Shown: positions 1,518 to 63,393 of the stretch, in pieces
How positions within the stretch are numbered: the stretch's first letter is position 1
Layout of the letters: the number at the start of each line of letters is the position of its first letter
From: Ianthella basta
Lineage: Eukaryota; Porifera; Demospongiae; Verongiida; Ianthellidae
Direction: 5' to 3'
NCBI GenBank assembly: GCA_964019415.1
Contig: OZ025885.1
Location: 3,260,672 to 3,324,671, forward strand
Length of the DNA stretch: 64,000 nucleotides
The notes under the pieces: generated by a model
Seen by the model: the letters and a program-made list of their open reading frames with translations, nothing else
Told to the model about the DNA's origin: nothing
Database searches by the model: none
Program-made: the position numbers and the translations under genes

Positions 1518-4500
1518 ATGGATATCCCTGCAGTGCAGAGAAAGCAAAAGTCATTGCAGAGTTTTCTGCTTGCACTTAGTCAGAAGTTTGGCAAAGAAAC
1601 TGAGGAGAACTTGAAAGTATTTGTAGCTGACCATGGCCAGTTACATGATTCAGGGTTTCTTTCACCTGCAGAGATAAATCAGTGCAAAAATACATATGAG
1701 TTGTTGATGAACCTAGTGGGAGCAGGCTTCATGAATCCTCGAGACATGTCCAAATTGATAGATTTCCTAGATGCAGGAGGTGAGAAAACCCTATCGAAAG
1801 AAGTGCAGGAGTTTCAAGCTCAAGCTGAAGAAAGTAAGTATGCTGTACAAGTTTGTGTTCATCAGAAAATATAATCTAAACATACTCATTCAAAGCCTTG
1901 AGGCACAGAACAATAGGTATTCTAATGAATCGATCTTCAACCATGCCTCTCACACAGTCAGTGCTATCAGACAGCACGGTAGTGCTGTCTAAGTAGGGAT
2001 GGCAGGGTTGTTTGTATACTGTAATACAAACAAAAAGTCGCGCTACTCCTGAATAGGACCTAAAACCGACAAACGAAGCTTCCCGTGTAGACGCGGGGAT
2101 TGAACAGTGCACATAGCTAACCTTACTTCACAGCAAAGGTGCGCTTACACGTAGAGAGCACCCTCGACATTTCCACACGTTTCGTCTTCTTCTTTTTTGA
2201 CAGCAGTAGCGCACGAACCAGAGGGACCAGGAGAATACTTCTCGCACCATATTGCACCATTTTGGCTGGATGAATTTCTTTGTAGGTTAGAAGGCGGCGC
2301 AATTTAGTGCGGAAGACGGTGTTGCCACGACTCCGGCCGTGTTGCTTGACCAAGTGGGGCAGACGCCATTTTCAAATTACGTAATTCAAACGGATGAAAC
2401 TGGCGTGACTGGTGCCATTGCGAGAAGCTGCGTACACCTTCCGGAGGCTCCTTCTTCCGTTGTTTTGCACCACAGTGGAATTCTTCGCCTTGCTCTACAA
2501 CTTAGTGTGGTATTTGGCTTGTGGAATGAATTGTTTACAATGCCAATACACAGTTAAAGTAACTAACTATATTGTGCATCTTAGCTCCTGCTCCATAAAA
2601 AGTGCAGAAACTAAAAATAATAAAAATACTCTACAAAAAATTAATAATAAAAATGTAGGGATGGCATAAAAAGGACAGAAACAAGTAAAGGCTGTTACAC
2701 GGTGGAGCATTAACCATCAATCATCCCTACATTCAAGGGTGTAGGACTATACGGTGCGACATTCTTGCATGTAGGGACCATGGTTAATGCTCCACTGTGT
2801 GACAGCCTTTACTTGTTTCTGTCCTTTTTATGCCATCCCTACATCCTTACTATTTTTGTAGAATACCAATGCATGGGATATGATCTTGCTTGTATGTAGG
2901 AGGAAATAGAATACTAGCCTGACTTGTATAAACAACTGTGCACACTATGCACATTCAATGTCAGTGCATTTCCAGACATTATTAAGTGGCAAGGTGCTGT
3001 ACATGTCAGACAATTGTTTTGCACTTGATTAATTCACTGCTGGAAGCTTTAGGGAAATAGCTAACTAATTCATGCAATGAGAATATATGTTAGAATGCTG
3101 TTGAGGTCCACTTAGACTAGAGGAAGTCATAAGTTAAATGAATCAATGATATGCAGGTTGTCCATCCAAGACCAGAGGAAACAGCACAATTGGAGAGAGG
3201 CGTAGGTCATTTCGATGTTTTCTGCTTGAGCTTAGCACACATTTCAAGAATGAAGCTGAGGAGAACTTGAGGGTTTTTGCAGCACACCACGGCCCTGATG
3301 CAGGCTTTCTTGCATCCACAAAGATTGAGCAGATCAAAACTGTGTTTGGCTTGTTGATGGCCCTAGTGGATGTTGGCTTCATGACTCCCCACAACATGTC
3401 CAACTTGATTGAATTCCTAGAATCAGGCCGTATGAAGAAATACCTAGTAACAAGGGTCCAGGAATTTCAATCTCAAGCACAAGGAAGTGAGTAAAATTGT
3501 ATTTATGGTAATTATAATATTACATTGCACTATTCATGGGGTGTGCATTAAACATAATTACTGTGATGCAGTGTAACCACTTTCACATGCAAACTCTACA
3601 GCACTGTATGTGTGCATGTTAAATTTGCCAAATTACTGTATGCACAATAGTGTACTGTAGTAGCTGGTCCTAGGCACAGCATCCTGAAAGCGAATAACCT
3701 TTGTGGCTAGGGCTAAATATGCTTAGTCTAATGTTGAACATCACTGGGCAAGACTTTTATTCAACTTGAATCGAAACATTCAGTTTCTTCATCAGAGGTG
3801 GGTACAAAACAGCAGGTTACTGCATGATGGGCTACAGTGTATGTGGAATTCTACTAATTCTAGTTGTAAGTGACAGCAGGTGAGGTGAACGCTAGGTAAT
3901 GAATAAACTGAACTATGACTTAAGACAGGGTGGGTCAACTTAAGCATGCAGTGTCTAGAGGGGGTATCTGGCAACATGCTATCATTTCTCTTTAAAGTGC
4001 ATGTTTTATGAGACTATGACTTAATGTGAAATGATTCCATTGTAAGCCAGCGTATTTGTTGCTGCAGCACTCTGACATCATCCACTCCATAGGGTGGCAG
4101 TGGTTCCATGCATGTCCGGCCATTGCCAAGTTATATAGTCTCTTGACTTCAACAAGTAGTTTTCTGGTGCTCCTTCACTCGCTTCCCAGGCATCTGCTTG
4201 CTTGGCCTGCATTAGCAGAGCAACCAATCCATGGGACCTGATACCCTACTCCTGCCAGCTGCCAGAAGGCTGCTCAACTTCCTGACATCCTCTACCACAT
4301 TCAGACTATTGTGGCTGCTGGCAACACCACCATGCTGTCATATTTCTGGAGGTTTCTGTGGAGCTGTTGTAGAAGCATGTTCATATGAGAAGGTCTAGCC
4401 TAAACCGAATGAATCACGTCCTGTTTTATACACGCTGACACCACTGATGAAGATATAACCACATGATTGTCAAATACTTCGGTAGTGTAGATCAAGCACG

Positions 4501-7500
4501 TTCTGATCGATGTGCATTGTTCATGACTTAGTACCTATTTTGTCAGGAATTGCACTGTTGCAATATTCACATGACTTGTATGGGGTCAGATTAATATCTT
4601 GCACATCCATAAGCAAGGCACTGCATGCTTATGTATTGGAAGAGTTAGTATGTACTAGGTTGATGAGAGTCAACCTTCTAAGGACTCACATACCATATAT
4701 ACTGCTGATCGGTTTTTAAGCATATGCGCTTATAGCTCTAGCTGGCAGGATAAAAATATGGGCCTAATAAAAGATATGTGCTTAACATGCAAACATTATA
4801 TTAAGATGGCCCGCGTAATGCAGTAAGTGAGTTCCAATTTAAGCCCTATTTTATTAGTTTGTAGTCATTTTTACACTTCAGGCAAGTGGCTAGTCTACCG
4901 GGGAGTCCTCATATGCACCTAATAGAAGGGGTGAACCCCCAACATCACTAGGTGCCTAACAAATAAGGTGAAAAATTGATAATGAAATGTGTGCTTAACA
5001 GAGGATATGCGCTTATAAGAAGGGTGTGCTTAACAACCGATCAGTAAGTAATGCATTTGATTATGTAATTAACCTTTAACATTTGCACTGTAATGTGCGC
5101 CATAATTAGTCTTCCAATTTAAGTTTGACTTCTGCTTGTCATGATTCACAATGCATAATTATGCATGTAGGTATCTCACCCAGGAGCAGTACCACCACGG
5201 CCCCTCCATGTGGTAATTCACATGCAGACCTGCAGACACATCCACCTAATGAAGCTGCTACATGTCAGCCTGTAGACCAGACCCGAGATGAGTTCATGAT
5301 AACTCCCAGTGTCCTTCCTGCAAAATCACAAAGCTTCATTAGTGTAGAACAGCACAGCAGTAAGCAAGGTAAGTATACAATGGGCACCCAATGTGGAACA
5401 CTAATTTTAACTCCAATGGTACCGGTATACAGCATAAACACAAAATCACTTATAACTTAGAAGGGCCTTAACCCAGTCACCCCTCCCCCCCTCCCCACCA
5501 CCACCACCATGCATGTCACATACACATTTCCACTACCTTGCATGTGTTCAGCTAAGGCCTGCATGTTTGTACTTCAGTACAGTAGGGAATTCTGTGAAAC
5601 TACAAGACATATCACCCTCAGATAGCTTACAAATATTACTAACGTCGGCAAGGTTTTCAACCCTGTTGTGAAGCTGGTATTAGAGAACCAACCCTTTCTG
5701 ATGCCTGAGCCAGCTGAGAAGCCCTCACTTCATTACTGTTACTACAGAAGTGGTGCATGGGAATTTCACTGCAAGGCAGTCATTTGCCCCAAAATTTGTT
5801 AAGCTTTTAGTTACGGAAGGAAGTTCTAAATGTGACACAGGTTAGACTGAGTGATCAATCCTTGGACGGAATGTATTCTCGGATTGGCGCAAGGCACTCC
5901 CAGAAGGTCTGCCATTCGTAAACATCTGGTAGCAGATTGGGCGCAATATGCTGTAGAGCAAAGCAGGAGTTGTTTCACGGATCGATAGCTTAGTGCAACT
6001 GTATCGAGTTTTATCACCATTTTTTCACGTGTTTTATCCCAGCTTGCGTGTTTGTCCTGTTTGACAGGGACATTGAGTCTGATTTTTCGATATCTTGTTA
6101 TGATCCCATACCTTGGTAACCAAACTCAGTATCAGTACTGTTTGTCTGATGCATTGAGGTTGGTTGCCTTCCCAATGTCCGTCAGTAATCGCGCTTCCGA
6201 CAATACATTAACGGACCCAAGAATTGATTTTCAGTGAGTGAGCAGGAAGTGACTCTTCTAGAGCGGCAAGGAGAAGTGTCAACGACACGCCTGTCTTAAT
6301 GTGTTCTAGAGTCAGCAAGGTGTTTTATTCCAAAGATAGGTCGGGCACTTCATCTCCTTCCTGGAAGTCAGATTGAGAAAAACAAAAGGTGTGCGAGCAT
6401 TGATCACTTTCTCTACCCTGTACTACAACCATTTAAGTTCTGCTGTTCGCAACTGAAACTGCATATTCATGAATAGCAAGAATTAGCTGCCAGTAATGCA
6501 ATAATAAAAGTCACGTCAACAACCAAACTTGTACAAAATATGTATAAAACAAAATTTTGCAGTATTATTTTGTACTTATATAATTACAGGCCATTATATA
6601 GCATTATGGTACTACCTGGGTAGCATAATCATTGTTCCAACCTCCATCCATTCACTAAATAGGATGCACAAATAGACCATTTGGGCTACAATAGGCTACT
6701 GTTTTCCCAAGTAGCAATTTAGGAACCACAAGCACAGCCATGAGTATGTAGAATGGCACAGCATTGCTAAATGACAGCATTCAGCTTCATATCATTCAAA
6801 TTATTCAAGCTTCCTTCCTTATATAATTCTGTACTCTTATAGATGCACCTGCCCCAACTACTTACAGACATTGTCAGGCAAGTATTAACCCTCCCAAAAG
6901 ATCCATGCAGCCTAGTCATATCAGCAACTGCCTACCAGATGATGATGAGCCTCCTCCATTGAAGCAACGCAGATTTTCTCACTCAGCTGATGAAAAGTGT
7001 GTTGTTAGCCAGCTGGCTGTTCCACTGCCAGGTGTTGGCAGACCATACTCCCTCACTGGCTTTTTAGCTGACATTCCAGATGATTTGCAGAAGGCCATGC
7101 AGTGGCTAGTCATTGGCAACTATGCCTGTGTTATACCAAACATTCGAAAACACCTCTCGTTTGTCGTGGAGCCATTGGCAGGAGATGATATTATTCTAGA
7201 TTTTGAATTATGTACGCCGCAACCCCTTCCCATTCAGGCACTCAATCATCCTGCCTTTGTGCACAGCGAGGACTATGAAAGCATTCTTCAGCTGATCATG
7301 GAAACCATACTCATCGCACCAAATCCTGAGAAAAACCTTGCTAAGCTTCTTCAGTATCCGCATATTTCAATCCCCGAGTCACTAAAGCTGCTATATAGGT
7401 CACGTCTTCCATCGGTAGCAACTGATGAAAAACTACGGGAGGAGCTAGCATGTCAATGTCATTACCATTCTGATCGCATGAGAAGTGAACAGCAAGCCAA

Positions 7501-8185
7501 TTTTGTTCCCCCCAAGAATCAGTGGTACCTGGCTCAAGTCTACGATGCTACAGCGAATATCAACAAACACCAGAAGAGTGCAGATTTTAGAACAAAATTC
7601 AAGCAGAAAGCATATTTTCATTATCATGCAATGCAAGTGAGACAGAACTATAAGCCACACATGTGCTTGCAGGAGGCACTACTAAAATTGGAGTCTGCTC
7701 GTTCTGCACAGAGTCAAGGATATGCTTATGCTGAAATGGCCACAAATGGCCCAGAGCACCCGGTGGTTCGGAGGGAGCATGCTGAAGTGGCTAGATCACT
7801 ACATGAGGAAGCAATAAACGACCATGCCACTCCACTTTTGAAGCTCCTTCATATGCACAAAGGAATGTCAGAAGGGGCAGCCCTTGTGGCCAATCTGAAA
7901 TTTGATCAGATGTTGGGGATCCTCCGACCAGCCCAGCTGGACTACATACTCTACTCCAGCATGTGGACTGAAGAAGAGAGAAAGCAAAAGCTGCAATGTC
8001 ACTTGACACAAGTTGTGAATGACTTTGAGAGAATCCATGACCAGCTGTCTTCCCGCACTGAGGTGGTCCCAGTACTGCTAAATCTACTTGCACAGATGGA
8101 AGAGAGCATGGTCTCCCTGAAGAAGGAAGTTGCTGAAGGTTGTATCAAGGGCTTTACCCTTAATAACCCCACCATGAGTGAATGA
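1518..8185 (+). CDS. Death-fold gene 1: tandem DED-like domains plus conserved C-terminal domain
   Basis: Four inferred exons: 1518-1833, 3157-3486, 5171-5368 and 6843-8185. All junctions are phase 1 with GT/AG borders, and they join to 728 aa. Exon 1 (about residues 12-103) and exon 2 (about 120-214) each encode a DED-like helical bundle with the pattern LLxLS..F near helix 1, NLxxF in helix 2, and a DMSxLIxFL run followed by a final VQEFQ helix. Exon 3 is a Ser/Thr/Pro-rich linker. Exon 4 carries an acidic/proline stretch (DDDEPPP) followed by the roughly 400-aa C-terminal domain shared with five paralogues, ending LNNPTMSE. No P-loop, caspase or TIR motif is seen. Introns 1 and 2 contain foldback MITEs. 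AATAAA occurs at 8291-8296. DED proteins act as homotypic adaptors in apoptosis and immunity; the role here is unknown. Without transcript data the exon joining is inference, but the symmetric phases support it. Confidence 0.75.
2654..2843. repeat. Foldback MITE in intron 1 of gene 1
   Basis: Two nearly identical arms of about 65-80 bp in opposite orientation begin TGTAGGGATGGCATAAAAAG on the left and end with its complement on the right. They are separated by a short loop around 2740-2770. The structure is that of a small non-autonomous inverted-repeat element. No coding capacity is seen. Confidence 0.75.
4704..5044. repeat. Short-TIR MITE in intron 2 of gene 1
   Basis: CTGATCGGT followed by TTTTAAGC at the left end is mirrored by GCTTAACAACCGATCAG at the right end. 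Internal GCGCTTATA motifs occur near both ends. It is about 341 bp, has no reading frame and lies wholly within the intron. Confidence 0.6.
5369..6842. other. Intron 3 of gene 1, no recognised feature
   Basis: The stretch between the linker exon and the last exon has no convincing coding potential. Short open frames near 5826-6237 have no recognisable motif and no paralogous support. Confidence 0.4.
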
Positions 8186-9413: not shown

Positions 9414-10199
9414 TTACTGACACTTGACTGAGAAGTTAAAGTATGTGTTTGGAAAGGGCTCATTGTTTAGTGTGTAGTGCCACCACTCATTGGGGTAGTT
9501 GGTGAAGGAGTGCTTCTCCAACACTGTCTTCAGCAACATGCGGTGCTGCATCTGCTCCTTGGTCACTTTGCTGCTGTTAGTGTGAGCTATGGGGCTGAAG
9601 CAGTCAAATCCTGTTCCCATATCAACACTGTTGTCACGGAACCTATCAGGTAAGGGATTGAAGCATGGCAGCAGCTTCTGACCAGGCCAGTACTTCTCCT
9701 CTGAAGGGGGAGGGTAGGGCACTATAGTGAGATCGGAGGTGGAGCCGCGAGAGTGGCCCGACTTCTTGGCAATATAGCCTTCGGGGAAGAGAACACTCTT
9801 GCTCAGTGTGGGGTAGAATTCCTCCTTCATCGTAGTGTCATTGGGGTTCTGTGACCAGCGTACGAAGTCGTCCACCGCCATCTGAGGTCGATAGCAGTCG
9901 TAAACCTTAATGGTGTACGGAGGGGACATGGACATGAAGTCGTCCTGAGCAGCAGAAAGCGCCTTTGCAGCTTGCTCCGTTAGAATGCATAGCGGGTCAA
10001 TGTATCCCGTGATGGGACGGCCCACAAAGTTGTGAAGGCTGTCATAGCGGATCTCCCTCAGTATTGTAGGAGCCACTTCGGCAATGGATACGAATCCCTG
10101 AGGGATGGCGGTACAGGTCGTGCTCACCTGGTATACCTGCAGACACAGGACCAGAGTAACAGCCAACAAGAGACCAGAGCTCATCCACGAAGTAGCCAT
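9414..10199 (-). CDS. Secreted VanX-like D-Ala-D-Ala dipeptidase, copy 2 (intact)
   Basis: 261-aa product with the same length and motif set as copy 1. It has an N-terminal signal peptide with a LLLAVTLVLCL core, DCYRP at 101-105, SGHSRGSTSD at 147-156 and EWWH at 238-241, so all expected zinc ligands and the catalytic Glu are present. Differences from copy 1 are scattered substitutions, mostly in the signal peptide. The start codon at 10197-10199 is preferred over an in-frame ATG 27 codons upstream because it begins the signal peptide directly and matches copy 1. It is divergently paired with the unknown gene at 10719 across a shared upstream region, and converges on death-fold gene 1. Confidence 0.9.
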   Translation of the reverse strand: MATSWMSSGLLLAVTLVLCLQVYQVSTTCTAIPQGFVSIAEVAPTILREIRYDSLHNFVGRPITGYIDPLCILTEQAAKALSAAQDDFMSMSPPYTIKVYDCYRPQMAVDDFVRWSQNPNDTTMKEEFYPTLSKSVLFPEGYIAKKSGHSRGSTSDLTIVPYPPPSEEKYWPGQKLLPCFNPLPDRFRDNSVDMGTGFDCFSPIAHTNSSKVTKEQMQHRMLLKTVLEKHSFTNYPNEWWHYTLNNEPFPNTYFNFSVKCQ

Positions 10200-10718
10200 T
10201 GCCCAGCCGGATTTGGCCAGTAGAGGCGGAGACAATAGGTAATTCCCCAGGGAGTTGCCCTTGTGAAGCACGTGTTGCATGGCGGTCGATATGTTGATGA
10301 TCTAGTTCCGGCCGTTGAGTCACAAACGCCGCAAAATGTTGAGCTACAGCAGTATAAACCGGTCAGACGCCGTCAATCTACGCGTAACTTCAAGTAGGAA
10401 GGAAAATTTTCGGCGAGGAACTTCCAAGGCTGAAGAGGGCCAGGTAAGTACCGCCGGTACATGTCGAGTGTAGTTACGTTGCTAGCTAAATGGCAGGCTG
10501 TGTTACAAGCATGAGTGGGGTATTATACTGTGGTTGGGTTCAGCTCCTGTTTCGATTTAGCCTCGTTCCCAGGCCCTTATTATCGCGGACGGCCTGGGGA
10601 CGAGGCTAGTTTCGATTGTAACGTTTTGTAGAAGGAACAGCCGAGGCAGATCGGGTCAATCATGTTTTCGAAGAGTCTAGCTAATGTGAGGCGAATGAAG
10701 TAGAATTCGTCCAGTACG
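10200..10718. promoter_or_regulatory. Shared divergent promoter region (dipeptidase / unknown gene)
   Basis: This region is conserved in the three duplicated segments between the dipeptidase start and the unknown plus-strand gene. It contains CACGTG at 10269-10274, also present at 21878-21883 and 34152-34157. On the plus strand a candidate donor, CAG/GTAAGT at 10441-10449, suggests a short untranslated exon spliced toward the gene at 10719. Promoter function is inferred from position and conservation; no TATA element is clear. Confidence 0.5.
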
Positions 10719-12073: not shown

Positions 12074-13128
<1,055 letters not shown>

Positions 13129-16482: not shown

Positions 16483-19400
16483 ATGCTTAGCAAGGCCAGT
16501 AAATATGCAGAGTGTGGGGCCACTGCCAGCCCACGACAACAGAGACGCACTCCAGGCTCCACTCAACCAAGCCCTTTTCGCTGTCTCCTCTCTCATGTTA
16601 GCATGCAGCTCGACACGAAGGACTTGAATCATTTTAAGGCACTAGTGGTAGATTATGGGCAGGAGGATGACAAGGGCATCCTGTCAGTGGAGCAGCTGGA
16701 AGAGATAACTACCATGTTTGAATTGATGGTTGCACTAGCACGGGTAGACTACATCCAACCTGATGACCTGTCCAACCTGGTAGCATTCCTAGAAATGAGA
16801 GGCCACCATTCCCTGGTGAAAAGGGAAATTGAAGAATTTCAAAAGAAAAGAGAAAGTAAGTGAATACTTGAAGTGCAATGACAGAAAGTAGGATTAACTT
16901 TGCTTGACTGTATTTGCATTCTATGCAATTAACTTTTAATAAGCCATCTGTTGCCACACTAGCCAATCTAGCTCACAGATTTCTAGTATCATCACTGTCT
17001 TACATTGCCACTGGTAATGTAAAATAGGGATAATAGCAAAAGAATTGAATATTGGTAACTAGCAGAGAAGCCTTGCTTTGTTGAGCTTCTCTTCTACAGC
17101 ACCCGATGCCTACACTTCCTACCTGTCCCCCGATGCCCTTAGCAACCATGTTACTGCTACAGCTAGTCTTACGCTGGCTAAGAATAAAATAATAGCTGGT
17201 GTGATGACTATGTAAATTTAAATTCAACCATGGTGACAGCTAATTAAGTCTGGTAAAAAAACAGGCGTCAATGGGAACGATAATTAGAAAATGGCTGTTG
17301 TCCACGAAGGAAAAAGCGGAAATGGAAGGGTAACTCTCTGCGAACTGCAAGACAGGTGGTGTTAACCCCACTAAAACCTGACCCCCTGTGCCCCCAGCAA
17401 CCACAGCGAGTTCGATGCCAACGGCGCAGGAAACATGTGCTCACATAGCAGACACACAGACACAGTCAGCTTTATATATTAGATTACCAGTATTTAGATG
17501 GTGGCAGTGCTCAGCACATCCTCCCTCAATTCCTTCGATTTAATTTATTCACAATGACATTCATTTCCATGCGTAAGTGCACAAGGAGCATTCCAATTGC
17601 TTCACACGTGATTCTAAATCCCATAAAGTACGTTGCAGGCAGAGCGTAAGGGTTTATAAATCCCATATAGGTCTGTTGCCATGGTAACAGGCATCTAAAC
17701 AATGGTTCTAAATCTCTGAGAAGCATTCCAATTGCTTAAGTTTCGAGTGTGATTCTAAATCCCATTGAGTACACTGCAAGCAGAGCATGGGTGCTTCTAG
17801 ATCCCATTAAGTACGATGCGGTCAGAGACCCCTTTACTGTGAGCAGTAGCACAACATTATTGCCACACAGAATTTGCTGCACTGTTGTGATTTGTGGTTC
17901 CTTCCATATTTCCTGACTTTAGATTCATCTCCACCAGCCATTCACAGAAGCATTCACACAAAAGTTGATGAAGACACTCACCACAAATGCATGGAACTGA
18001 GTGGTATCTATGACCACTTAAAACATGTTGATCTTGAATCTCCATCCTCCACTTCAAGCCCTATCCACACCAGTGATGAACAGCCAGGTTATGACCATCA
18101 GAAGCAAAGCTCTGAACCCAGTCAGCATGCTGAAGCAAAACCAGAGCAACCAACAGATGATGAATGCCAGATGGGCATTGCACCACTAAGTGTTGCCAGA
18201 CAGCAACAGAAAATCATTCCTTACTCCTTGGCTGTCGTTCAAGTTAACATACCGGTTGAGCTGCAGAAGGCAATGAAGTGCATAGTAATTGGCCACTATG
18301 TAGATGTTTTCCGAAGCATTTACAACCATTTTGATAATGTTATTAAGCGTTACACCAGAATATTTATGGGCCCATTCACAGGATTCAATGTTGAAGATGG
18401 TGTTGTCCTGAATTTTGGATTAGGCGCACAGCAACATCTTCCCATTCAGGCACTCACTCATCCTGCCTTTGTGCGCAGCGAGGACTATGAGAGCATTCTT
18501 CAGCTAATCATGGAAGCAGCACTCATGGCACCTAATTCCAAAGAAAACCTTGACAAGCTGCTTCATTATCCAAATCTTCATATCCCTGAGTCACTAAAGC
18601 TGCTATATAGATCACGTCTTCCTTCGGTAGCAACTGATGAAGAACTACGGGAGGAGCTAGCCAGCCAAAGCCAACACCTTGCTGAGTGGCTGAGAGATGA
18701 ACAGCAGCAAGCCAACTTTGCTGCCAGCAAGACCACATTGTACCTGGCCCAAGTCTATGATGCCACTGCCTACATCAACAGACACCAACAGAGTGCAGAC
18801 TTCAGAGCAGTATTCATGCAGAAAGCAGATTTTCACGAGCGTGCAATGCAAGAACGACAGAGCTATGAACCACGCACAGACCTGGAGAAGGCAGTTCTAA
18901 AGTTGGAGTCTACTCGTTCTGCACAGAGTCGAGGATACGCTTATGCTGAAATGGCCACAAATGGCCCAGAGCATCCTAAGATTCGGAGGAAGCATGCTGA
19001 AGTGGCTAGATCACTACATGAGGAAGCAATAAATGACCATGCTGCACCACTTTTGGAGCTCCTTCACATGCACAAGGGAATGTCAGAAGGGGCAGCCCTT
19101 GTGGCCAATCTGAGATTTGATCAGATGTTGAGGATCCTCCGACCAGCCCAGCTGGACTACCAACTCCACTCCAGGGAATGGAGTGAAGCAGAGAAAGGGA
19201 GGAAACTAAAGTATCATTTGGCACTCGTGGAAAATGAGTTTGATCGGATTCGTGAATTGCTCTCTTCCCAATCTACAGTGCTCCCTGTCCTACAAGATCT
19301 ACTTGAGAAGATGGAAGAGAGTATGGTGCCACTGAAGGAGAACGTTGCCAGAGGCTGTGTAAAGGGCTTTGCTCTTAATGATCCTACCATGAACGAATGA
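16483..19400 (+). CDS. Death-fold gene 2: DED-like domain plus conserved C-terminal domain
   Basis: Two inferred exons, 16483-16855 and 17923-19400, join in phase 1 to 616 aa. Residues about 31-120 are DED-like: FRCLLSHVS (helix 1), DLNHFKALV (helix 2), a TTMFELMVAL helix, DDLSNLVAFLE (helix 5) and a last helix EIEEFQKK. A Ser/Pro/Gln-rich linker follows. The C-terminal domain starts at about IIPYSLAVVQ and ends in the conserved tail GFALNDPTMNE. Invariant blocks include RSRLPSVATDEEL and GMSEGAALVANL. The start ATG follows a conserved acceptor by one base. The intron has no second death-fold exon; it holds a fragment of the dispersed 740-bp element at about 17577-17840. The length equals that of gene 6, and genes 2, 3 and 6 are very close. 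No enzyme motif is seen; an adaptor role is inferred from the DED. Confidence 0.8.
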
Positions 19401-21649: not shown

Positions 21650-21719
21650 AATATTGGCCCAGCCGGTGTCACAGGAAATCCGACCCCCCCCCCCACTTTA
21701 CGGTATCCCCGTGTAGAAT

Positions 21720-37900: not shown

Positions 37901-37940
37901 GCTGTAAGTCCCTTAGTGAAACCTCAGATTGACCTCTGCA

Positions 37941-40984: not shown

Positions 40985-40996
40985 TCCTCCAAAAAT

Positions 40997-41012: not shown

Positions 41013-41014
41013 AT

Positions 41015-45385: not shown

Positions 45386-45570
45386 TGCCTTTGAGTAGGA
45401 CTGTCTCGACTGGATATACTCTCTCCTGAAGGTCCTCTTCTCTGATCACCTGTGACAGCCTTCAGACCATCAATAATGCTCTGAATGAAATCAGTGTCAT
45501 TGGTCATGTACCCTTCCGGGACTACATACTTGGTTGACCTCCTCGGGCTATCACTACCCTTGCTAGAACC

Positions 45571-47207: not shown

Positions 47208-50200
47208 ATGTCAAGAGGCGCTCAGCAGTATGCTGACTTAAGGGCAAAGGATGGCCCTGAAATGGAGAAAAAGTCAACAGTGTTTGAGTGTTTTCTACTT
47301 AGCCTCAGCACAGATTTCAGCCAGGAACTCACGGACAACTTGAAAATTTTTTTAGAAAAACGCCAACATACTGGGTCTGGATGCCTTGTACCATCAAAGA
47401 TTGAGCAGACCAAAACTGTGTTTGGCTTGTTGATGGCCCTAGTGGATGTTGGCTTCATGACTCCACATGACATGTCCAAGTTGATTGATTTTCTCAATGC
47501 CAGTGGTGAGAATGCCCTAGTAAAGAAAGTGCAAGCATTTCAAGCTGAAGCTCAAGGTGAGTTGAATGATTGTGTAATTTTTATCATTGAGAATTACATT
47601 GCTACTTTAGAAAGAAATGTACAGATTATATATACTTAGCGTAAATAACAAAGGTAACCCATCATAAAACAAAGTGTACATGTGGCCAATTTTGATTTGC
47701 TTTTATTATGATGTTGGAGTTGAGTATACAACATAGTTTGTCGAGAAGGAAAGAGTTATAAGCATAAGCGCAGCCAGGCCACATGGAAGGAGCTACGTCC
47801 GAAGACCTTAATTGAGACAATGTGCTGGAATATGACACTATCAACATCCTTATTGTCCGTAGACCTTCAAAACAACATAGGACAGGAAAGAAAGTGACAC
47901 CACCGGGAATCGAACCCAGGACATCTGGCTTTAGCTGCCAGTACTCAAGCCACTGAGCTATGATGCCTCACTGGCAACCACTCACTTCCCAGCCCTTATA
48001 GACCTTGGTTGGCGTGATTGTTGCTAAATTACAGGATGCCTGATGCGTGGAATTAATCAAGAAGGAAGTGGCACAGGTCGATTGTGTCTTGTTCCACCAT
48101 GTTGCCTTAAAGGTCATCCGATGTAGCTCCTTCTATTGGGCCTGGCTGCATTTATGCTTAGAACTCTTTTCTTCTCGATCAATTCCATGCAGCAATCATC
48201 CTATAATCTAGCAACATATGTTTAATTTGTGCTCTTTTGTTAACCGTAATACCTAGTGTCTAAGAAATGTATTCAATGCTGTCTAGAGCTCTCAGTTTGA
48301 CATGTTGGATGATGCCTTCTGTATGCAGATGTCGCATTAAGGAGTGGCGCAATGGAACAAGTCATGCAGAAAGAAGTTCTCACCACTGCCGAGCAACCCA
48401 GTGATAGCCAAAGTGAGTGTCCACTCCTAACTCATGTACCACCTTCATCGTTTGCTCTGCACAAGCTTTCTTGGGCAGGTGGGAGTAAACTTCACACCCA
48501 ATTCAAGGAGCCTAATCTTGTGTCTGTTTTAATTGCTAATCAGTTTGAATTAGCCGTGCATCATTGGTGTCTTGGTAGCAAACGATCTGCCTGTGATACT
48601 GATGGGAGTTCAGAACCCTGCTATCATACAAGTACTGTAATAAAGTGCCTGCCTCTGGCAGTCTTACTTCTCATGGGAGAATGGGTTAGGGTTAGAGTGG
48701 TATGGGTTTCCAAGCTGTAACATAGGGGGTACCTATTTTCATATTGAAATGGGGAACCGGGGTCCCATTTAGGGGGCCCATTTTCACATGATACCAGCCA
48801 TCTGACTCATCGCCTGCTGTGAATATGCTCATAATCCTTCATGATCATCAACTGCACATAGCAACTAGCTACCTGCACTAATTGTCAAACATTTAGTGAC
48901 ATTGTCTCTTTGGGAGGAAAGCAGTGAGTTCATTTACTGACATTACAGAAGTAGGCTTCTGGTACAGTGAGAGCTGAAATGGTAAGCCAAGAGTATGCTC
49001 TACCAATTCCAAGTGGAGGGTTATCATAATATGCTCCTGTGTGGAAATACTCACACACAGTGTCAGTTTTTAGGGTGTAATTTCAAGATTGGGTACTCTG
49101 CAAACCCCCAAAGTTAGATAATGAGTTTGTGCACTTACGTAGACCTTTGGCTTGCCACTTATCCTTCTCAACAATGTCTGGTGCAGCAATAAGTGCTATT
49201 TTACGGGTTTCATTGATGGCAATATTTCTAGATCTTGTTACAGGATAATTATTTATGCATCTTTTACACAACATAATTAGGGCTTCATACCAAGCTTGAT
49301 TCGTTCACACACGATCTGAAGGAGAACTGTATGGAAATATAAAGGCAAATAATTGTGGATCCATCCCATTCTGGTGCTGTATGATTGCTGCTGCTTCTTG
49401 ATGGTGAGGGCTACCTAAGACTACCAAGACCGTTGGGTATGACCATACAGTGGAACCCCTATAATGTGGACACCCTTTGGAACTATAGAAGTGTCCTGTT
49501 TATAGGGGTGCCCGCATTTCAGAGGTATGTACGGCTTATACCATAGTGGTATTTATTTTTGCGTGAGACTTATTTTTGCTATATTCGCAGTTCACCCCCC
49601 AATCCGCGAAAATATGTACACGCGAAATATTTGTCACGTTCTCCTTGCTGCTATTGAGCTATGGCACCACTGTGTTACTTCAAGCCGGTCGACGGCCACG
49701 TTCCTGACCCTAACGGCCCACTTTCTGCCGATATCCCACTACCTGTGATCCGGCAAGCAAACCTTGATGTGGTGGCGACTGAGAAGCAAGATGCCAGTGC
49801 AAAGATGTGGGCTTGAGGACCGTACGGTCGACTAACTGATCGACAGAGCATTGATTGGCAAGAATGCCAGTGAGAATGGGAACACTGCAGCTGTAGGGAA
49901 ATTCTCTAAGGAATTGGACAGGCCAGTGAATGGGTTGCTCATCTCATCTCCCGCTGGAACACAAGGTTCTCCCCCTCTTCCACAATCCACACACTCTTGT
50001 ATACATGCTGGCCTCTGATACTGGAATGGCACAGGTAAGTCGCTATCATATCATTTGCTCACCTAGCTATAATACCATAGCAACATAATAGACAGTAGTA
50101 GTACATATTTTTGCGTGTGGTGTAACCCGCGAAATTTAGAATCCACAAAAATTTTGTTTCAAGGCATTCTTCAGCATTTCACGAAAGTAAAGTATCGCAA

Positions 50201-53200
50201 AAATAACTACCACTATGGTATGCCCATATGTTAAAACAATCATGTAGTATGCCTGCAAAAGTATCAAAATAAGACAAATTTGTAAGTAGAGGTGGTTTGC
50301 TCGAGTACTCGACTCACGCACCATTTCTGAAGACGATTCTAAAGGGTAGCTGTTCGTGCTGAACTTTCTCATGTTAAAGACACTTTCAAAATCCTTTGTA
50401 TAGACGATTTGCGGCACTCGCCAACTTCTGTGCTGTTCTTGTCATAGGTAGCAGTGCACATCAGAGAGCCGCCATTTTCTGACAGCTGATTGAAATGTCC
50501 GGATTACCGGGTGAGTTTTATACAGAGTTGTATAGGGCAGTGGACAGAGCGCTGTCTGCAATACGAATAACAGGGTGTCCGCATTTCAATGGGAGCTTTA
50601 TACAGGTAGCACAAGGCCAATCGTTGGGACTTTAGAAGTGTCCGCATAATCGAGGTGTTCACTTTTCAGGGGTGTCTGCAAGGTGGGGTCCCACTGTACT
50701 GCTCATTCTTGCCAGTGTTGGAAGGAATGAGGCTCTGACAGACTGCTGTCTCCGGTGGTGTCAGCAGGTCTCCAATGGTGGGAGCTGTCCTGAAATGGAA
50801 GTTCAACTAATGGCTCAGAGCATAGGTATAAGCCACATACGTATGCTGAATGTGGGTAAGGCTTGGTGATAAGTGACAGCTGTTCTATCTCATGTATCCA
50901 TTGTTCAACCTTCATCTTCACAAAAGCTTCTAGAATTTGACTGACCCTTTGCAGACCCTAAGTACCGTCTCCCAAGCCTGGTGAGCTGGATGACAGAAAT
51001 AACAAAGGTGGTAAATGCTTCTTCATAGTGATCCTTCTTCACAATCAACCAGGTTTTCTTTGGGGGAATGAGGAAGTAGCCATACTGTGGACACATCTGT
51101 GTGAGACCATCCCACAAGACCTTGGTGTGCTTCAATGCACTAACGGCTGCATGAGGTGTCATCAGCTTACTAGCACTGCTTCACTTCAAGACTGAGCTTG
51201 TTCATCAATGGCTCCAACTATAAGACTGATCAAGTGGGGCGAATTGGGGTGTATGGTAGCAGCATGTCTGTTTGATTCGCTACGGGCCTCTCGACCTGTG
51301 CTTCATTGCAGTCATAAGTTGTGAGAGAAAGGTATGACAAGAGGTTCAATGGCGGTGACTGCAGGGGGTGGATTGGGAGTCCTCTCCAGATCTTTGGTTG
51401 TATCCATGCAAATGACAGGAGTTGCAATTAGGCCTTCATTCACTTGCAGTGTGCAGCCAAAGTGCTAATTTATGCTGCCATAACACTCACTATGGCACAA
51501 TTATATTGATAGTTGGTGTTGCAGTAAGGATCTTACTAATGGCATGGAACACTGTGCACAAGGGTAGCCATCAGAGAGACTACCATATGCGCTTTAATTT
51601 TTGAAGGGTTTATATTTCACAGATTTAATTTTCATTTTGAAGGTTTCGCATTTTCAAATTCGATCATGCTGAAGCAAGTGGTGGTGAAATATTCACGGCT
51701 GATATATTTATGGTTGTTCAGAATTGTATAGTTCTGTGCCCTTTGCACTGGTGCTCCTGGCTATATCTTTGCCTTCTCATACACTAAGACTGTTAGCTTG
51801 TCAAAGAGGTTCTTCTCTTGTTCCTGCAAAGGTACATCATGTTTCACTCAGCTGCCATGCACAGTGCCCTCTAGCTAGCTACTTCTTCAAATTGCAGCAA
51901 CCTTTGAGGAACATTTTACCCAGATCTGACACGCTACCACTTTCAGAGACCAAGAATAGGTATGCTTCGTGATCATGAAGAACATAGCATCCTAGGACAA
52001 AGGAACTATAGCGTAGTGAATGAATTGTAAACTAGTTGTTACCATTTTAGTAGGGACTACATCACTTTTCGTGGCTTTCTGTGTACTAAGACGTGTCTAA
52101 TATTTGGACAAAATTTTTGGTGACAACCGCTGACCTGTGAAAGCCACAAACATTAATCCCTGTGAAAATTAAGTGCATACGGTATGTAATCAGATGAATA
52201 ATTAGTATTAAAAGCTCTATTGTTCAATTAGAAGGCTCAAACTACTTGTATACCATTCATGCAACAACCCAAGTCTAGTCACACCAGCTGTGATGCTTAG
52301 TGACACCACGTTTTTATACATTACTCATACATGTATGTTGTGGTACTTCCGATAAATGATCCTTGTGCCTTCATGCAGGTACACTTCAATACCAGCCTGC
52401 ACGTGAAGACCAGCAACGTCCTGTTGCTCCTGCTTCTAACATGCCATTAGAAAGGACTTCATCATGTCTCAATCCCAGATTGCAAGAGGATGGCGAGAGC
52501 AAACAATGTCGGAGTAAACCACATCAGCAGTGCACTGACACTATGAGAGTTGCACTTGGCTCTACGGGCAATGAGCTGCTACCATACTCATTCAATGTTA
52601 GCAAGCAACAATGGCTTTTGGGAAAGACGAAGGTTCACATTCCACCTCATTTGAAGGATGCATTGGCTGCTGTAATTATTGGGCATTATACAGAGATTTT
52701 CCGTTCTGCTGATAAGCATTTTGCTGAGGCACTTCCAATCGCTGGTGACAAGTATTCACATTTGCACGTATCATCAGAGTTGCAGTGTAGGCTGTCCAAC
52801 TCTATCTGGCTTGATTTTCAACATGGATCTTTACATCTGCTGTCCCTTTCCCAATGGACCCATTCTTCCTCTTTGGCAAGTGCTGATTATGAAAGCATTG
52901 TTCAGTTGATCCTTGAAGGGATTCTACTTGCTCCTAATGCTAGACAAAATCTCCTTGTACTTTTGAATTCACAGCTTTGTATACCCAAATCTTTGAAGCT
53001 ACTTTACATGTCACGTCTTCCATCAGTGGAATCTGATGAGGAACTTTGGAAAGAACTAACGAATGATTGTGAAAGACTTATTGACCAGCTTCAGGTGCAG
53101 CGAAAAGAGTTCAACAAAGCACATAGGTATTTAGCTCAGGCATATGATGCCATGGGGTACCTTGTGAAACACACAAAATCTTTAGATTTCACTGAAAAGT

Positions 53201-53778
53201 GGACTATGAAGGCAAAATATCACCATTGGGCATCACAAGTACGTAAGCAATACCAGTGCTGCTCAGATCTTGAGGTAGCACTTCTTCTGCTTGAACAAAC
53301 ACGCTCAATACAGAGTGAAGGTTACTCACATTCTCAGGTGGGCAATAACAGCCAGAAATGTGTTGCAGAGCGAATAATGCATTCTGGGGAAGCACGTGAG
53401 CTGCACGAATTAGCCATCACTGAGCATGCAAAACCATTGCTGCAGCTACTGGACATGCACAGAGGGATGTCAGAACCAGTTGCTTTGGTGGCAAATTTAA
53501 GATTCGATGAGATGCTGAGGATCCTCCGCCCAGATCAGCTTGACCTCTTACTACACAAAGAATGGAGTGAAGCTGACAAGCGCAAGAAGTGCATAGCCCT
53601 GGCAAAGAAGACAGAAGGTGAAGCAAGTAGGATCCAAGACTTGCTTAGTTGGCGAACAATACCTGCCCATGCAACCCTTTGTGACAAAATGAAAACGTGT
53701 GTAGCTACACTACTGCAGCAAGTTGAAAAGGGTGTTATTCTGGGCTTTGCACTAAATGATCCTACCATAAGCGAATAA
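47208..53778 (+). CDS. Death-fold gene 4: DED-like domain plus divergent C-terminal domain
   Basis: Three inferred exons, 47208-47556, 48329-48412 and 52379-53778, with all junctions phase 1, join to 610 aa. Exon 1 encodes a DED-like domain (about residues 22-114: FECFLLSLST, DNLKIFL, TVFGLLMALVDVGF, DMSKLIDFL, VKKVQAFQ), most like the second DED of gene 1. Exon 2 is a 28-codon linker. Exon 3 holds a variable linker and the C-terminal domain, the most divergent of the six copies. It keeps RLPSVESDEEL, LAQAYDAMGYL, RGMSEPVALVANLRFDEMLRILRPDQLDLL and the terminal GFALNDPTISE. The 4-kb second intron contains nested MITEs. Additional exons in that intron cannot be excluded. Function is unknown. 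Confidence 0.72.
47741..48178. mobile_element. TIR element carrying a tRNA-like sequence (intron 1 of gene 4)
   Basis: TCGAGAAGGAAAGAGTT...AAGCATAAGCGCAGCCAGGCC at the left is mirrored at about 48105-48178 by its complement with few changes, giving inverted arms of about 75 bp. A tRNA-like block at 47896-47967 sits between them. The element spans parts of the intron and may overlap linker exon 2 only at its 3' side, not within it. It is an unusual combination of MITE-like ends and SINE-like content. Confidence 0.65.
47896..47967 (-). tRNA. tRNA-like sequence, CTA anticodon position, probably tRNA-derived repeat
   Basis: 72 bases fold as a complete cloverleaf: the 7-bp acceptor (GGCATCA with TGGTGTC, including G-U pairs), D arm GCTC...GAGT, anticodon stem CTGGC/GCCAG and T arm CTGGG-TTCGATT-CCCGG all pair. 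The A box (TAGCTCAGTGG) and B box (GGTTCGATTCC) are good. The anticodon loop AGCTAAA would give CTA, with G instead of U at position 33, so it is unlikely to decode. Best read as a tRNA-derived element or pseudogene. Confidence 0.5.
49448..50696. mobile_element. TA-flanked CAGTGGAACC-type element with nested insert (intron 2 of gene 4)
   Basis: The ends CAGTGGAACCCC and GGGGTCCCACTG are inverted and flanked by TA. The 1249-bp length is much greater than that of the related 178- and 183-bp elements because a second element (about 49538-50222) sits inside. The remaining body has motifs such as GTGTCCGCATTTCA near both sides. Confidence 0.75.
49538..50222. mobile_element. Nested MITE (ATACCATAGTGGTA ends)
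   Basis: ATACCATAGTGGTATTTATTTTTGCG at the left and CGCAAAAATAACTACCACTATGGTAT at the right are inverted repeats of about 26 bp. Length is about 685 bp. No transposase frame is seen. Confidence 0.75.
51581..52185. mobile_element. TIR element (TACCATATGCGCTTTAA ends) in intron 2 of gene 4
   Basis: The left end TACCATATGCGCTTTAATTTT is mirrored by AAAATTAAGTGCATACGGTA at the right. About 605 bp, AT-rich, no coding frame. It ends about 190 bp before the last exon of gene 4. Confidence 0.6.
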
Positions 53779-55185: not shown

Positions 55186-57569
55186 ATGGACGAAGATCGC
55201 AAACAGGCATTAAGGGTACACCATCAGGAACTGAGGAGTGGATTAATCTTGGAAAACGTTTTGCCTGCCTTCAGAATATACCTAACAGACGTGGAATATC
55301 TGCAGGTTGAGGGGAAACAAGGAAACGTGGCACAAGTAGATGCGCTAATCAGAATCCTGCTAACGAAGGAGAACAGGCACTTCGATGGATTGACCAACAT
55401 TTGTGAGCATAACGGATATCCACACTGGGCGAAAAAGCTGCGAGCAACTGCTGGTGTCGGCTGCAATGAGGAGAAACGTAGGTGTACAGCACTTTGTGAG
55501 CACTATTATAAGATATAATCTAGCATGGCTGGACCCTATTCCATAAGGAACTCCTTACAGCAGTGTACTGGCTGGGAAAGGTTCCTTCCCTCACCTACAG
55601 TGACATCAGCATATAATAGTAGGGTCAGGAAAATAGTGGTTGGCTATACGAGACTAGGCTTTACCAATGTGCTAGTGGCCCTTCTCAGAGCATGCCACTC
55701 CTCATCAGTAGTGCCTACTTGAGAGACTGCAGGCATGATGAACTTGAACTTGACAAGCTTTCGCATAGCAGGTAGGGGCAGTAGTAAGATGTTTCGACCA
55801 CAAGAGTCTTAGTCAGTTACCAAATGAAGACCCTTGTGGTCGAAACGTCTTACTACTGCCCCTACCTGCTACACGAAAGTTTGTCGAGTTCATTTCCACT
55901 CTGTAACATGAGCCTCTGCTAGATCATAAGACTGCAGGCAGTCATTGAGCCCAAACTGTTGTAAACCCAGTGTGCATGATTTTAGGAAGGGTGTTTTGAA
56001 ATGTAGCAGATTTGGATAGCCTGATTACCACACTCCAACGTGTCTGTCATTCCTAGGCTTCACACAGGGAGGGAGGAGGTATATCTGATTTTGCTTGTTT
56101 CGCATCGATTACCCGGGCACTACAATTATTGTATTTCACTCATGTGTGGACTGGCACAGAATTCACCAAACTGCTTCTTCTTTGTGCGTTGGTTAGATTG
56201 GACCTCACCAGTTGTTCAAGCCAATGCTGATACTCCCAAAGGTTCCAACCACCCTAGTCATCACAACAACTGTCTACAGCATGATGATGATGATGAACAG
56301 CCTCCTTTGAAGCAACGCAAGTTTAATCCCACCAGTGGTGAAAATCTCTATGAAAGTCAGCTAGCTATTGCACCACTACAGAAAAGAATCCCTTATTCCT
56401 TGGCTGTTGTTCAGGTGAACATACCAGATAAATTGCTGAAAGCCATGAAATGCATAGTTATTGGCCACTATGCGGAAGTGTTCCGAAGCATTTATGGCCA
56501 CTTTGTGAATGTCATCAGGCAGCATACTAAGAGAGTTTCAGGAACAATTGCGGGGTTCAATGTTGAAGATGGTGTTGTCCTTGATTTAGGATTAGGCACA
56601 CAGCAACATCTTCCCATTCAGGCACTCACTCATCCTGCCTTTGTGCGCAGCGAGGACTATGAGAGCATTCTTCAGCTAATCATGGAAGCAGTACTCATGG
56701 CACCTAATCCCAAAGAAAACCTTGACAAGTTGCTTCATTATCCGAATCTTCATATCCCTGAGTCACTAAAGCTGCTATATAGATCACGTCTTCCCTCGGT
56801 AGCAACTGATGAAGAACTACGGGAGGAGCTAGCCAGCCAAAGCCAACACCTTGCCGATTGGCTGAGAGGTGAACAACAGCAAGCCAACTTTGCTGCCAGC
56901 AAGACTACTTTGTACCTGGCCCAAGTCTATGATGCCACTGCCTACATCAACAGACACCAACAGAGTGCAGACTTGAGAGCAGTATTCATGCAGAAGGTAG
57001 ATTTTCATGTGCGTGCGACACAAGAAAGACAGAGCTATGAACCACACACAGACCTGGAGAAGGCTCTGCTGAAGTTGGAGTGCACTCGTTCAGCACATAG
57101 CCAGGGATATGCTTATGCTGAAATGGCCACAAATGGTCCAGAGCGTCCTACGATTCGGAGGGAGCATGCTGAACGGGCACGGGTTTTAAATGAGGAAGCA
57201 ATAAGTCATGTCGCACCACTATTGGAGCTCCTTCACATGCACAAAGGAATGTCAGAAGGGGCAGCCCTTGTGGCCAATCTGAGATTTGACGAGATGCTGA
57301 GGATCCTCCGCCCCACTCAGCTGGACTACAAACTACACTCTAGCAAATGGAGTGAAGCAGAGAAAGAGAAGAGACTAAAGTATCATTTGGCACTGATTGA
57401 AAATGAGTTTGATCGGATCTGTGAATTGCTCTCTGACCATACAACAGTTGTCCCTATTCTGGAAGACCTTCTGTTGGAGATGGAAGAGAATATGGTCGTA
57501 TTGAAAGAGGATGTTGCAAAAGGGTGCATTAAGGGCTTTGCCCTCAAGGACCCTAGCATGAGCAACTGA
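55186..57569 (+). CDS. Death-fold gene 5: CARD plus conserved C-terminal domain
   Basis: Two inferred exons, 55186-55477 and 56197-57569, join in phase 1 to 554 aa. The first exon, about 97 codons from MDEDRKQAL, fits the CARD pattern over residues 5-88: an N-terminal helix with the LRVHHQELRSGL stretch, LENVLPAFRIYLTDVEYLQ, a GNVAQVDALIRILLTKENRHFDGL helix pair, and CEHNGYPHWAKKL at the last helices. It differs from the DED exons of the paralogues, yet uses the same phase-1 junction into the same C-terminal domain. A variable acidic linker with a DDDDEQPP run precedes that domain, which keeps the invariant blocks and ends GFALKDPSMSN. The ATG lies in AAGATGGAC context. The intron holds a foldback at 55746-55891. 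CARDs recruit other CARD proteins; the partner is unknown. An alternative acceptor slightly downstream is possible. Confidence 0.75.
55746..55891. repeat. Foldback MITE in the intron of gene 5
   Basis: Arms of about 65 bp include GCAGGTAGGGGCAGTAGTAAG and GTTTCGACCACAAG and their complements, around a loop near 55812-55828. No coding capacity. Confidence 0.8.
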
Positions 57570-61020: not shown

Positions 61021-63393
61021 ATGCTTAGCAGGGCAAGGAAATATGCAGAGTGTGGGGCCACTGCCAGTCCTCTGCAACAGAGACGCACTCCAGTCTCCAC
61101 CAAGCCAAGCCCCTTTCGCCTTCTCCTCTTTAAGATTAGCAAGCAACTTGTCGAGGAGGACTTGGAGAACTTAAAGGCACTAGTGCAAGATTACGGACAG
61201 GAAGATGACAAGGGCATCCTGACAGCAAAGCAGCTGCAGGAGATAACCACCATGTATAGTTTGTTGATGGCATTAGCAGGGAAACACTACATTCAGCCTC
61301 ATGACCTGTCCAATCTGGTAACTTTCCTGGAAATGAGTGGTCGCCATGACTTGGTGACAACAGAAATTGAAGATTTCCAAAGGAAACAAGAAAGTAAGTG
61401 CATCTATGCATGCTTGAAGCTTACAGTGGTTTCACGATTTCTAGTCTCGATTGACATTTGCGCATTGCACTCGATCATGTGAGTAAAGTATTGGAAGGAT
61501 AGGCTCGCACAGGATAAGCACGTGCTCCGATCTATGTGTGAGCTTATCAATCCAATACTTTACTCATGTGATTGAGTGCAATGCGCAAATGTCAATCGGG
61601 ACTAGAAATTGTGAAACCACTGTATTGATGGAAGGAGGTTTAGCTTTAGCTTGACTCATAATAATATAATTCACAATGTAATATTATTATAATACAATTA
61701 ATAAGCAATTTTAAGTAAACCATTTGTAGCCATCCTAGCCAGTCTAACTTACAGATTACTAGCATTTTCATTACTTTGCATTACCTTTATTCAATTCTTA
61801 ACACTGTACAGCACACAGTCTAAACCTACACACATTCCTACCATTGCCATTGCTGTAGGGGAGCAATAGATGCATTGTAATGGTGTTTGGTTCATTCCTT
61901 GATCCCTAACATTAGATTCACCTCCACCAGCCACTCACAGAAGAATTCACACAAAATTTGATGTCAGCACTCACCAGGAATGCATACAATTGGGTGGTCT
62001 CAGTGACCACCTGGAGCGTGTTCATTTCGAATCTCCACCATTTACTTCTAGCCCCAACCTCACCACCAATGAACAGCCAGGTTATGGCCATCAGAAGCAA
62101 AGCTCTGATCCCAGTCAGCATGCCGAAGCAAAACCAGAGCAACCAACAGATGATGAAGGCCAGATGGGCATTGCACCACTAGGTGTTGCCAGACAGCAAC
62201 AAAGAATCATTCCATACTCCTTGGCTGTCGTTCAAGTTAACATACCAGTTAGGTTGCAGCAGGCAATGAAGTGCATAGTAATTGGCCACTATGTAGATGT
62301 TTTCCGAAGCATTTACAGCCACTTTGTGGATGTTGTTAAGCGTCACACCAGGATATTTGTGAGGCCATTCACAGAGTTCAACGTTGAAGATAGCGTTGTC
62401 CTGAATTTTGGATTAGGCACACAGCAACATCTTCCCATTCAGGCACTCAATCATCCTGCCTTCTTGCGCAGTGAGAATTATGAGAGCATTCTTCAGCTAA
62501 TCATGGAAGCGGTACTCATGGCACCTAATTCCAAAGAAAACCTTGACAAGTTGCTTCATTATCCGAATCTTCATATCCCTGAGTCACTAAAGCTGCTATA
62601 TAGATCACGTCTTCCCTCGGTAGCCACTGATGAAGAACTACGGGAGGAGCTAGCCAGCCAAAGCCAACACCTTGCTGATTGGCTGAGAGGTGAACAGCAG
62701 CAAGCCGACTTTGCTGCCAGCAAGACCACACTGTACCTGGCCCAAGTCTATGATGCCACTGCCTACATCAACAGACACCAACAGAGTGCAGACTTCAGAG
62801 CAGTATTCATGCAGAAAGCAGATTTTCATGAGCGTGCAATGCAAGAACGACAGAATTATGAACCACGCACAGACCTGGAGAAGGCAGTTCTAAAGTTGGA
62901 GTCCACTCGTTCTGCACAGAGTCGAGGATATGCTTATGCTGAAATGGCCACAAATGGCCCAGAGCATCCAAAGATTCGGAGGGAGCATGCTGAAATGGCC
63001 AGATCACTACATGAGGAAGCAATAAATGACCATGCCACACCACTTTTGGAGCTCCTTCATATGCGCGAAGGAATGTCAGAAGGGGCAGCCCTTGTGGCCA
63101 ATCTGAGATTTGATCAGATGTTGAGGATCCTCCGAACAGCCCAGCTGGACTACCAACTCCACTCCAGGGAATGGAGTGAAGCAGAGAAAGAGAGGAAACT
63201 AGAGCATCATTTGGCACTCATTAAAAATGAGTTTGATCAGATCCGTGAATTGCTCTCTTCCCAATCTACGGCGCTCCCTGTCCTACAAGATCTACTTGAG
63301 AAGATGGAAGAGAGTATGGTGCCACTGAAGGAGAACGTTGCTAGAGGCTGTGTAAAGGGCTTTGCTCTTAATGATCCTACCATGAATGAATGA
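61021..63393 (+). CDS. Death-fold gene 6: DED-like domain plus conserved C-terminal domain
   Basis: Two inferred exons, 61021-61393 and 61916-63393, phase 1, joining to 616 aa, exactly the length of gene 2. The DED is the most canonical of the set: FRLLLFKISKQL (helix 1), EDLENLKALV (helix 2), TTMYSLLMAL, HDLSNLVTFLE, and an RHDL motif at residues 108-111, the RxDL signature of DEDs, followed by EIEDFQ. The linker is Ser/Pro/Gln-rich. The C-terminal domain begins at about RIIPYSLAVVQ and ends GFALNDPTMNE. The intron is only 522 bp and is largely filled by a foldback element. No catalytic motif is seen; a scaffold or adaptor role is inferred. Confidence 0.82.
61424..61622. mobile_element. 199-bp foldback MITE in the intron of gene 6
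   Basis: Arms of about 88 bp start CAGTGGTTTCACGATTTCTAG and end with the complement GAAACCACTG, flanked by TA. The arms share GACATTTGCGCATTGCACTC and GAGTAAAGTATTGG blocks. Confidence 0.85.

Follow-up and report, generated by a model that had tools for sequence, protein, structure and literature searches.

A multigene family of the sponge Ianthella basta joins DED or CARD head exons to a shared tail resembling a TPR-like helical solenoid

Introduction

A stretch of 64,000 nucleotides from the genome of the sponge Ianthella basta (contig OZ025885.1; hereafter the window, whose numbering is used for all coordinates that name no other contig) contains six genes in which death-fold heads are followed by one long, shared C-terminal region, and the question raised by this locus is what kind of protein such genes encode. 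In animals, the head and the sensor of cytosolic death-fold receptors are often separated by a STAND NTPase, either NACHT or NB-ARC. With moderate confidence, we propose that the six genes encode lineage-specific cytosolic adaptors or sensors of immunity or cell death, in which a death-fold head exon is joined to a TPR-like solenoid tail and no NTPase can be recognised. The genome searched comprises 209 Mb in 96 contigs, of which three besides that of the window, C3, C5 and C12, are mentioned below.

Organisation and extent of the family

The genes lie on the plus strand between positions 1518 and 63393, and each is composed of one or more death-fold head exons and a single long exon for a tail of about 400 residues (Table 1). 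The tail open reading frames of genes 1 to 6 encode 452, 516, 415 (plus 146 past a frame change), 472, 514 and 496 amino acids, and every one of them is longer than the longest frame found in 100 mononucleotide shuffles (271 aa) or 100 first-order Markov simulations (290 aa) of the window. A preliminary description of this DNA had proposed a six-member multigene family with a long shared C-terminal exon, and the six related tail frames, splice-compatible with their heads, bear this out. Judging from the sequence, the genes are presumably transcribed and their heads spliced to their tails: all seven head-tail junctions, i.e. those of the six genes and of a further copy on C5, have GT/AG sites and join phase 1 to phase 1, and the two DED exons of gene 1 are connected in the same way. 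Gene 3, whose tail is interrupted by the frame change, is a probable pseudogene; alternatively, an assembly or allelic variant may lie behind the change.

The gene 6 tail, used as the query for the genome-wide count, gave eight matches, namely the six genes of the window (gene 3 as two pieces) and the copy outside it (C5:8250977-8252194). This seventh tail had been overlooked in the preliminary description, which also missed the tandem DEDs of gene 1, the frame break of gene 3 and the very large family to which the CARD of gene 5 belongs. No additional head, tail or M15 peptidase gene was found by tblastn in the 20 kb on each side of the window.

Relatives were also sought in a protein database by short exact words, among proteins of 0.55-1.75 times the query size, a range that long NLR-like carriers of the tail would escape. 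The tail had 40 relatives (35 labelled, 5 unlabelled) and the head 23 (17 labelled, 6 unlabelled); those with a source label were counted as other assemblies, since the label is omitted for proteins encoded by the window itself. No relatives were found in viral contigs or in contigs of bacterial and archaeal genomes. In three cases, head and tail matches fall on contigs of identical size (1,410,471, 1,428,816 and 8,541 bases), which we read as the same contigs, so that head and tail would be linked in other assemblies too. Tails of the gene 4 type form an old branch with relatives of its own in other assemblies (SH-aLRT 100). A search of the open-licence literature found no description of this tail.

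Both parts of the genes appear to be maintained. Among the tails of genes 1, 2, 4, 5, 6 and the C5 copy, the NG86 dN/dS ratio was 0.21-0.56 in 11 of 15 pairs, the other four being saturated; the six DED head exons gave 0.27-0.57 in 14 of 15 pairs. Values below 1 in the measured pairs point to purifying selection on heads and tails. As for diversifying selection, dN exceeded dS in one of 36 segments across three tail pairs, and this segment (gene 5 versus the C5 copy, 0.028 versus 0.018) contains very few changes.

In the branch of genes 1 and 5, the linker of the tail carries an acidic stretch followed by PPLK and basic residues (6938-6976 in gene 1, about 56281-56330 in gene 5). This pattern occurs in 5 of the 40 tail proteins and could be a localisation signal.

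Properties of the tail

Profile scans of the tails yielded no credible match to a P-loop, caspase, TIR or kinase, as had been noted in the preliminary description. NACHT was not matched in them either; the same library detects NACHT in three exons of the genome at 1.1e-25 to 6.7e-29. With Pfam, no LRR or death domain was found in the tails, the LRR models equally missing five of five frames downstream of the NACHT exons of the genome. For none of 33 tails did the Pfam families listed up to E <= 10 include a TPR model, in a scan where weak matches above about 0.1 were mostly filtered out. Comparison of nine profile segments by hhalign revealed no sequence repeats in the tail, matches being obtained solely between overlapping segments. 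TRADD-N was not matched in the tails, and its model PF13820 has no hit anywhere in this genome or in the control genomes either, so this result is uninformative.

Several weak matches were treated as chance: DUF4411 in 15 of the 33 members (best E 0.0012), Med30 in nine, DUF2408 in two (best 6.4e-4, with 20.7 bits where the cut-off is 25) and, among PDB sequences, three RRM chains (E 0.13-0.52), the last because their matches lie in a helical segment.

Structures predicted for the tails of gene 6 (m883545073b42) and gene 4 (m4acc511c7b5b) are nearly all helix, with only a small beta-hairpin. Both models resemble TPR-type alpha-solenoids, at scores below Foldseek significance, and no catalytic fold was recognised among the top fold-match rows for either of them. 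Matches in a library of viral structures were weak (best E 0.038), and TPR, SNAP or Sel1 repeat proteins made up many of these. As modelled, the tail thus resembles a TPR-like helical solenoid that is unrecognised at the sequence level. The preliminary description had suggested a new domain and had named structure prediction with a fold search of the gene 6 tail as a check; novelty holds for the sequence and not for the predicted structure, which looks TPR-like without a significant Foldseek match.

Head domains

The heads had been described as DED in genes 1, 2, 3, 4 and 6 and as CARD in gene 5, and this assignment was reproduced by Pfam, mostly with scores under the cut-off, and, for the DED heads, by tblastn. 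The gene 6 head passes the Pfam DED cut-off (8e-11 and 3.3e-11 in two scans); the heads of genes 2 and 3 fall below it, those of genes 1 and 4 are weak matches under it, and the CARD_2 match of gene 5 is marginally under its own (Table 1). In tblastn with three queries (the heads of genes 1, 4 and 6), the DED heads were linked at E 2e-12 to 9e-60, some pairs being unmatched. Gene 1 encodes a tandem DED, one domain per exon. The closest PDB match of the gene 6 head is the tandem DEDs of caspase-8 (6.2e-4), PEA-15 being much weaker (0.7).

Exchange of heads between genes

Over some 1.19 kb of DNA, the gene 5 tail shares 86% identity with its counterparts in genes 2 and 6, and it is preceded by a CARD instead of a DED. 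This CARD has at least 149 matches in the genome at E <= 0.1 (self included; best 150 of 218 candidates scored). The C5 tail, in turn, is 92.6-92.7% identical in DNA to that of gene 5, and the two CARD heads differ, with 26% identity. The CARD of the C5 copy has a weak Pfam score of its own (0.015), but it is a member of the CARD family of this genome's CARD-NACHT genes: it has at least 150 matches in the genome (self included; best 150 of 340 candidates scored), and its exon shows 84-90% protein identity to the 15 closest CARD exons. At three such loci that were read, the CARD exon precedes a frame of 587-616 aa with the NACHT matches mentioned above. None of five further frames scanned behind the NACHT exons matches an LRR model, and for this reason the loci are called CARD-NACHT and NLR-type here.

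The C5 copy is 87-88% identical in DNA to the CARD-NACHT loci through the CARD exon and for about 220-235 bases beyond its donor site; about 340-355 bases without a match come next, and the match to gene 5 begins 79 bases before the tail exon. The joint of the chimera therefore sits inside the intron. No NACHT was found in C5:8229000-8258999 (30 kb, reaching about 22 kb downstream of the tail), and the nearest known NACHT exon, about 14 kb upstream, is part of another gene next to this one. As read from these alignments, the C5 locus is a chimera in which the tail occupies the place of NACHT in CARD-NACHT genes, and it is direct evidence that recombination placed the tail exon behind an NLR-type head. 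Pieces of tails are also swapped: a tract of gene 5 at about 56730-56880 is 95-99% identical to genes 2 and 6 and 79-81% to C5, which shows gene conversion.

The CARD nearest to that of gene 5 lies on C3 (L017, C3:2014000-2022000), with a conserved 272-aa frame downstream of it (2440-3258 of this locus, minus strand). The frame has 66 matches in the genome (self included) and no significant Pfam match, and is possibly a further unrecognised CARD partner; TRADD-N was considered for it and could not be shown.

Proposed function and alternative explanations

If the proteins are adaptors or sensors of a death or immune pathway, which the preliminary description had suggested and which still seems the best interpretation, the tail, a helical superhelix of about 400 residues, would bind a protein, a peptide or a microbial ligand, and this binding would draw tails together. 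The clustered heads would then nucleate homotypic assembly with DED caspases or with CARD partners common to NLR-type genes, and the pathway of output would be set by the head, the same tail occurring behind a DED, a DED-DED and two CARD heads unrelated to each other. At least one of these joinings was the product of recombination within an intron. We infer ligand binding, assembly and signalling alike. C12 encodes a 712-aa frame of the DED-DED-caspase type (C12:1374045; DED 2e-37, C14 4.1e-57), together with more DED frames. At two loci of this contig (L015 and L016), frames for DED-DED-caspase, for DED-DED and for caspase adjoin one another; two long frames there, of 709 and 887 aa, have DED-DED as their sole Pfam match at E <= 0.01. 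A point against the canonical DED mechanism is that RxDL, which we take to be the motif of DED helix 6, is present in 1 of the 23 head proteins, that of gene 6 itself. A family whose heads are attached directly to a helical solenoid, and which has swapped heads with NLR-type genes of its own genome, would be a simple test system for the triggering of assembly without an NTPase, and it would document how exon shuffling assembles candidate immune proteins in an animal.

A bolder version of the proposal would be a class of NTPase-free animal immune receptors, with a constant helical sensor tail in the position of the NACHT part and swapped DED, tandem-DED or NLR-type CARD heads, for which the linked, putatively secreted M15 peptidases would hint at a bacterial cell-wall cue; we regard it as speculative and rather unlikely. 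If true, receptors would be built here by changing the output head while the sensor stays constant, and not by changing the sensor behind a constant head.

Another possibility, which we consider tentatively, is that the proteins are decoys or regulators comparable to FLIP, PEA-15 and CARD-only proteins, their heads capping DED or CARD filaments and the tail acting as a recruiting scaffold. The divergence of the heads, seen in the rarity of RxDL, the failure to detect an effector domain and the proximity of the gene 6 head to the caspase-8 tandem DEDs are consistent with such a role, but the re-heading of the C5 copy with an NLR-type CARD suggests that the head is used for an output of its own. 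The tail might, instead, be an effector, i.e. an enzyme or a helical domain acting on membranes or chromatin, that is switched on by assembly of the heads, a role for which the preliminary description had also left room. Its lack of a sequence family, the PPLK-basic patch of some linkers and the presence of NASP/Hif1 histone-chaperone domains among the fold matches would fit this explanation, which is nevertheless unlikely given that both models are helical arrays in whose top fold-match rows nothing catalytic was recognised.

We think it improbable that, instead of being TPR-like, the tail represents a diverged BRO1-like (ALIX/BROX) or 14-3-3-like domain, as might be argued from HD-PTP Bro1, which has Foldseek probabilities of 0.99 (rank 7) and 0.96 (rank 20), from 14-3-3 chains in the lists of both models and from their very long helices. 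Finally, it is very hard to maintain that heads and tails are separate adjoining genes. In favour of this view, DED, CARD and other Pfam domains are absent from the precomputed annotation of all 40 tail relatives, as would be expected if introns were ignored when the genes were called. The phase and splice sites of the seven junctions, the identical order and strand in seven of seven copies and the head-tail linkage in other assemblies all speak against it.

Comparison with known systems

Considered as adaptors or sensors, the proteins share parts with known death-fold systems and are distinguished by the constant tail; no NTPase was matched, nor was TRADD-N, whose model is uninformative here. 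NLRs (CARD-NACHT-LRR) likewise begin with a death-fold head, and the C5 copy draws on the same CARD exon family as CARD-NACHT genes; unlike them, the family has no NACHT or LRR match and ends in a tail modelled as TPR-like. For the sponge Dysidea avara, excerpts of PMC12909245 give 126 NLRs, 20 of them with CARD, and treat NACHT-TPR genes separately, not counting them as bona fide NLRs; these genes retain the NTPase, in contrast to the family described here.

Excerpts of PMC8195603 place 357 Amphimedon proteins in the NCOA6 TRADD-N clade, most architectures having one to three Death-like domains followed by TRADD-N; their C-termini vary, with ankyrins or SH3-LRR the commonest. The TPR C-termini named in these excerpts are from Crassostrea gigas (behind a cGAS domain) and from the DEDD2 clade (TTC28-like TPR), not from Amphimedon. 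Such expansions are similar in their N-terminal death-fold domain, large sponge expansion and multi-domain shuffling, but there the C-terminus varies, whereas in I. basta the tail is constant, the head varies and no TRADD-N model is matched. Homologues of Apaf-1/CED-4 with DED (Nematostella) or CARD heads, in which TPR occasionally replaces WD40, are described in excerpts of PMC2246300; they are alike in the death-fold head and, if the modelled shape holds, in the occasional TPR tail, and differ in having an NB-ARC ATPase, which was not found here.

FADD, caspase-8, FLIP and PEA-15 have DED heads as well, comparable to the tandem DEDs of gene 1 and to the caspase-8-like head of gene 6, but no caspase or death domain was matched in the tails. 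The N-terminal ADP-heptose sensor domain of ALPK1 is a fold match of the tail, tied with other TPR-type solenoids; it has no sequence relation to the tail, and no kinase domain was matched in the tails.

Neighbouring genes and mobile elements

Table 1. Positions of the gene family and of neighbouring features in the window
Feature	Position	Strand	Evidence and remarks
Gene 1, first DED exon	1518..1833	+	ATG 1518; donor after 1833, phase 1; tblastn, Pfam DED 0.021
Gene 1, second DED exon	3157..3486	+	Symmetric phase 1-1; tblastn, Pfam DED 0.0028
Gene 1, tail exon	6843..8185	+	ORF (open reading frame), tblastn, splice phase
Gene 2, DED head exon	16483..16855	+	Pfam DED 3.1e-8, splice phase
Gene 2, tail exon	17923..19400	+	ORF, homology, splice phase
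Gene 3, DED head exon	28786..29158	+	Pfam DED 4e-7; in-frame ATGs upstream at 28708, 28714
Gene 3, tail exon	30169..31633	+	tblastn in frames 3 and 2; frame change near 31295
Gene 4, DED head exon	47208..47556	+	Pfam DED 2.7e-4, tblastn, splice phase
Gene 4, tail exon	52379..53778	+	Most divergent paralogue (tree); model m4acc511c7b5b spans 52579-53775
Gene 5, CARD head exon	55186..55477	+	Pfam CARD_2 4.4e-6, CARD 2.3e-4
Gene 5, tail exon	56197..57569	+	ORF, splice phase; gene-conversion tract (see text)
Gene 6, DED head exon	61021..61393	+	Pfam DED 3.3e-11, PDB match to caspase-8
Gene 6, tail exon	61916..63393	+	ORF; model m883545073b42 spans 62158-63390
D-Ala-D-Ala dipeptidase-like genes, four copies	12-944, 9414-10301, 20834-21697, 33535-34090	-	Peptidase_M15
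LTR (long terminal repeat) element in third 12 kb unit	36056-41288	- (coding)	274-bp terminal repeats, 97% identical
Transposon fragments	44783-46092	-	Endonuclease-like and reverse-transcriptase-like frames

The four dipeptidase-like genes are the only M15 matches in the genome, and three of them sit tail to tail with genes 1-3. Peptidase_M15 is matched at 9.4e-33 in the first copy, and by eye these genes have a hydrophobic N-terminus similar to a signal peptide. Two copies are open and contain SxHxxGxxxD and EWWH, which we take to be the functional motifs of M15 peptidases; the third copy has internal stops and the fourth a frame change. From about 8900 to 43800, the window is made up of tandem units of roughly 12 kb, mostly 88-96% identical, each of which has an M15 gene, while two also carry a DED-tail gene (genes 2 and 3). 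The LTR element of the third unit is, from the look of its frames, presumably Ty3/gypsy-like, and the transposon fragments further downstream are assumed to be LINE-like (long interspersed nuclear element).

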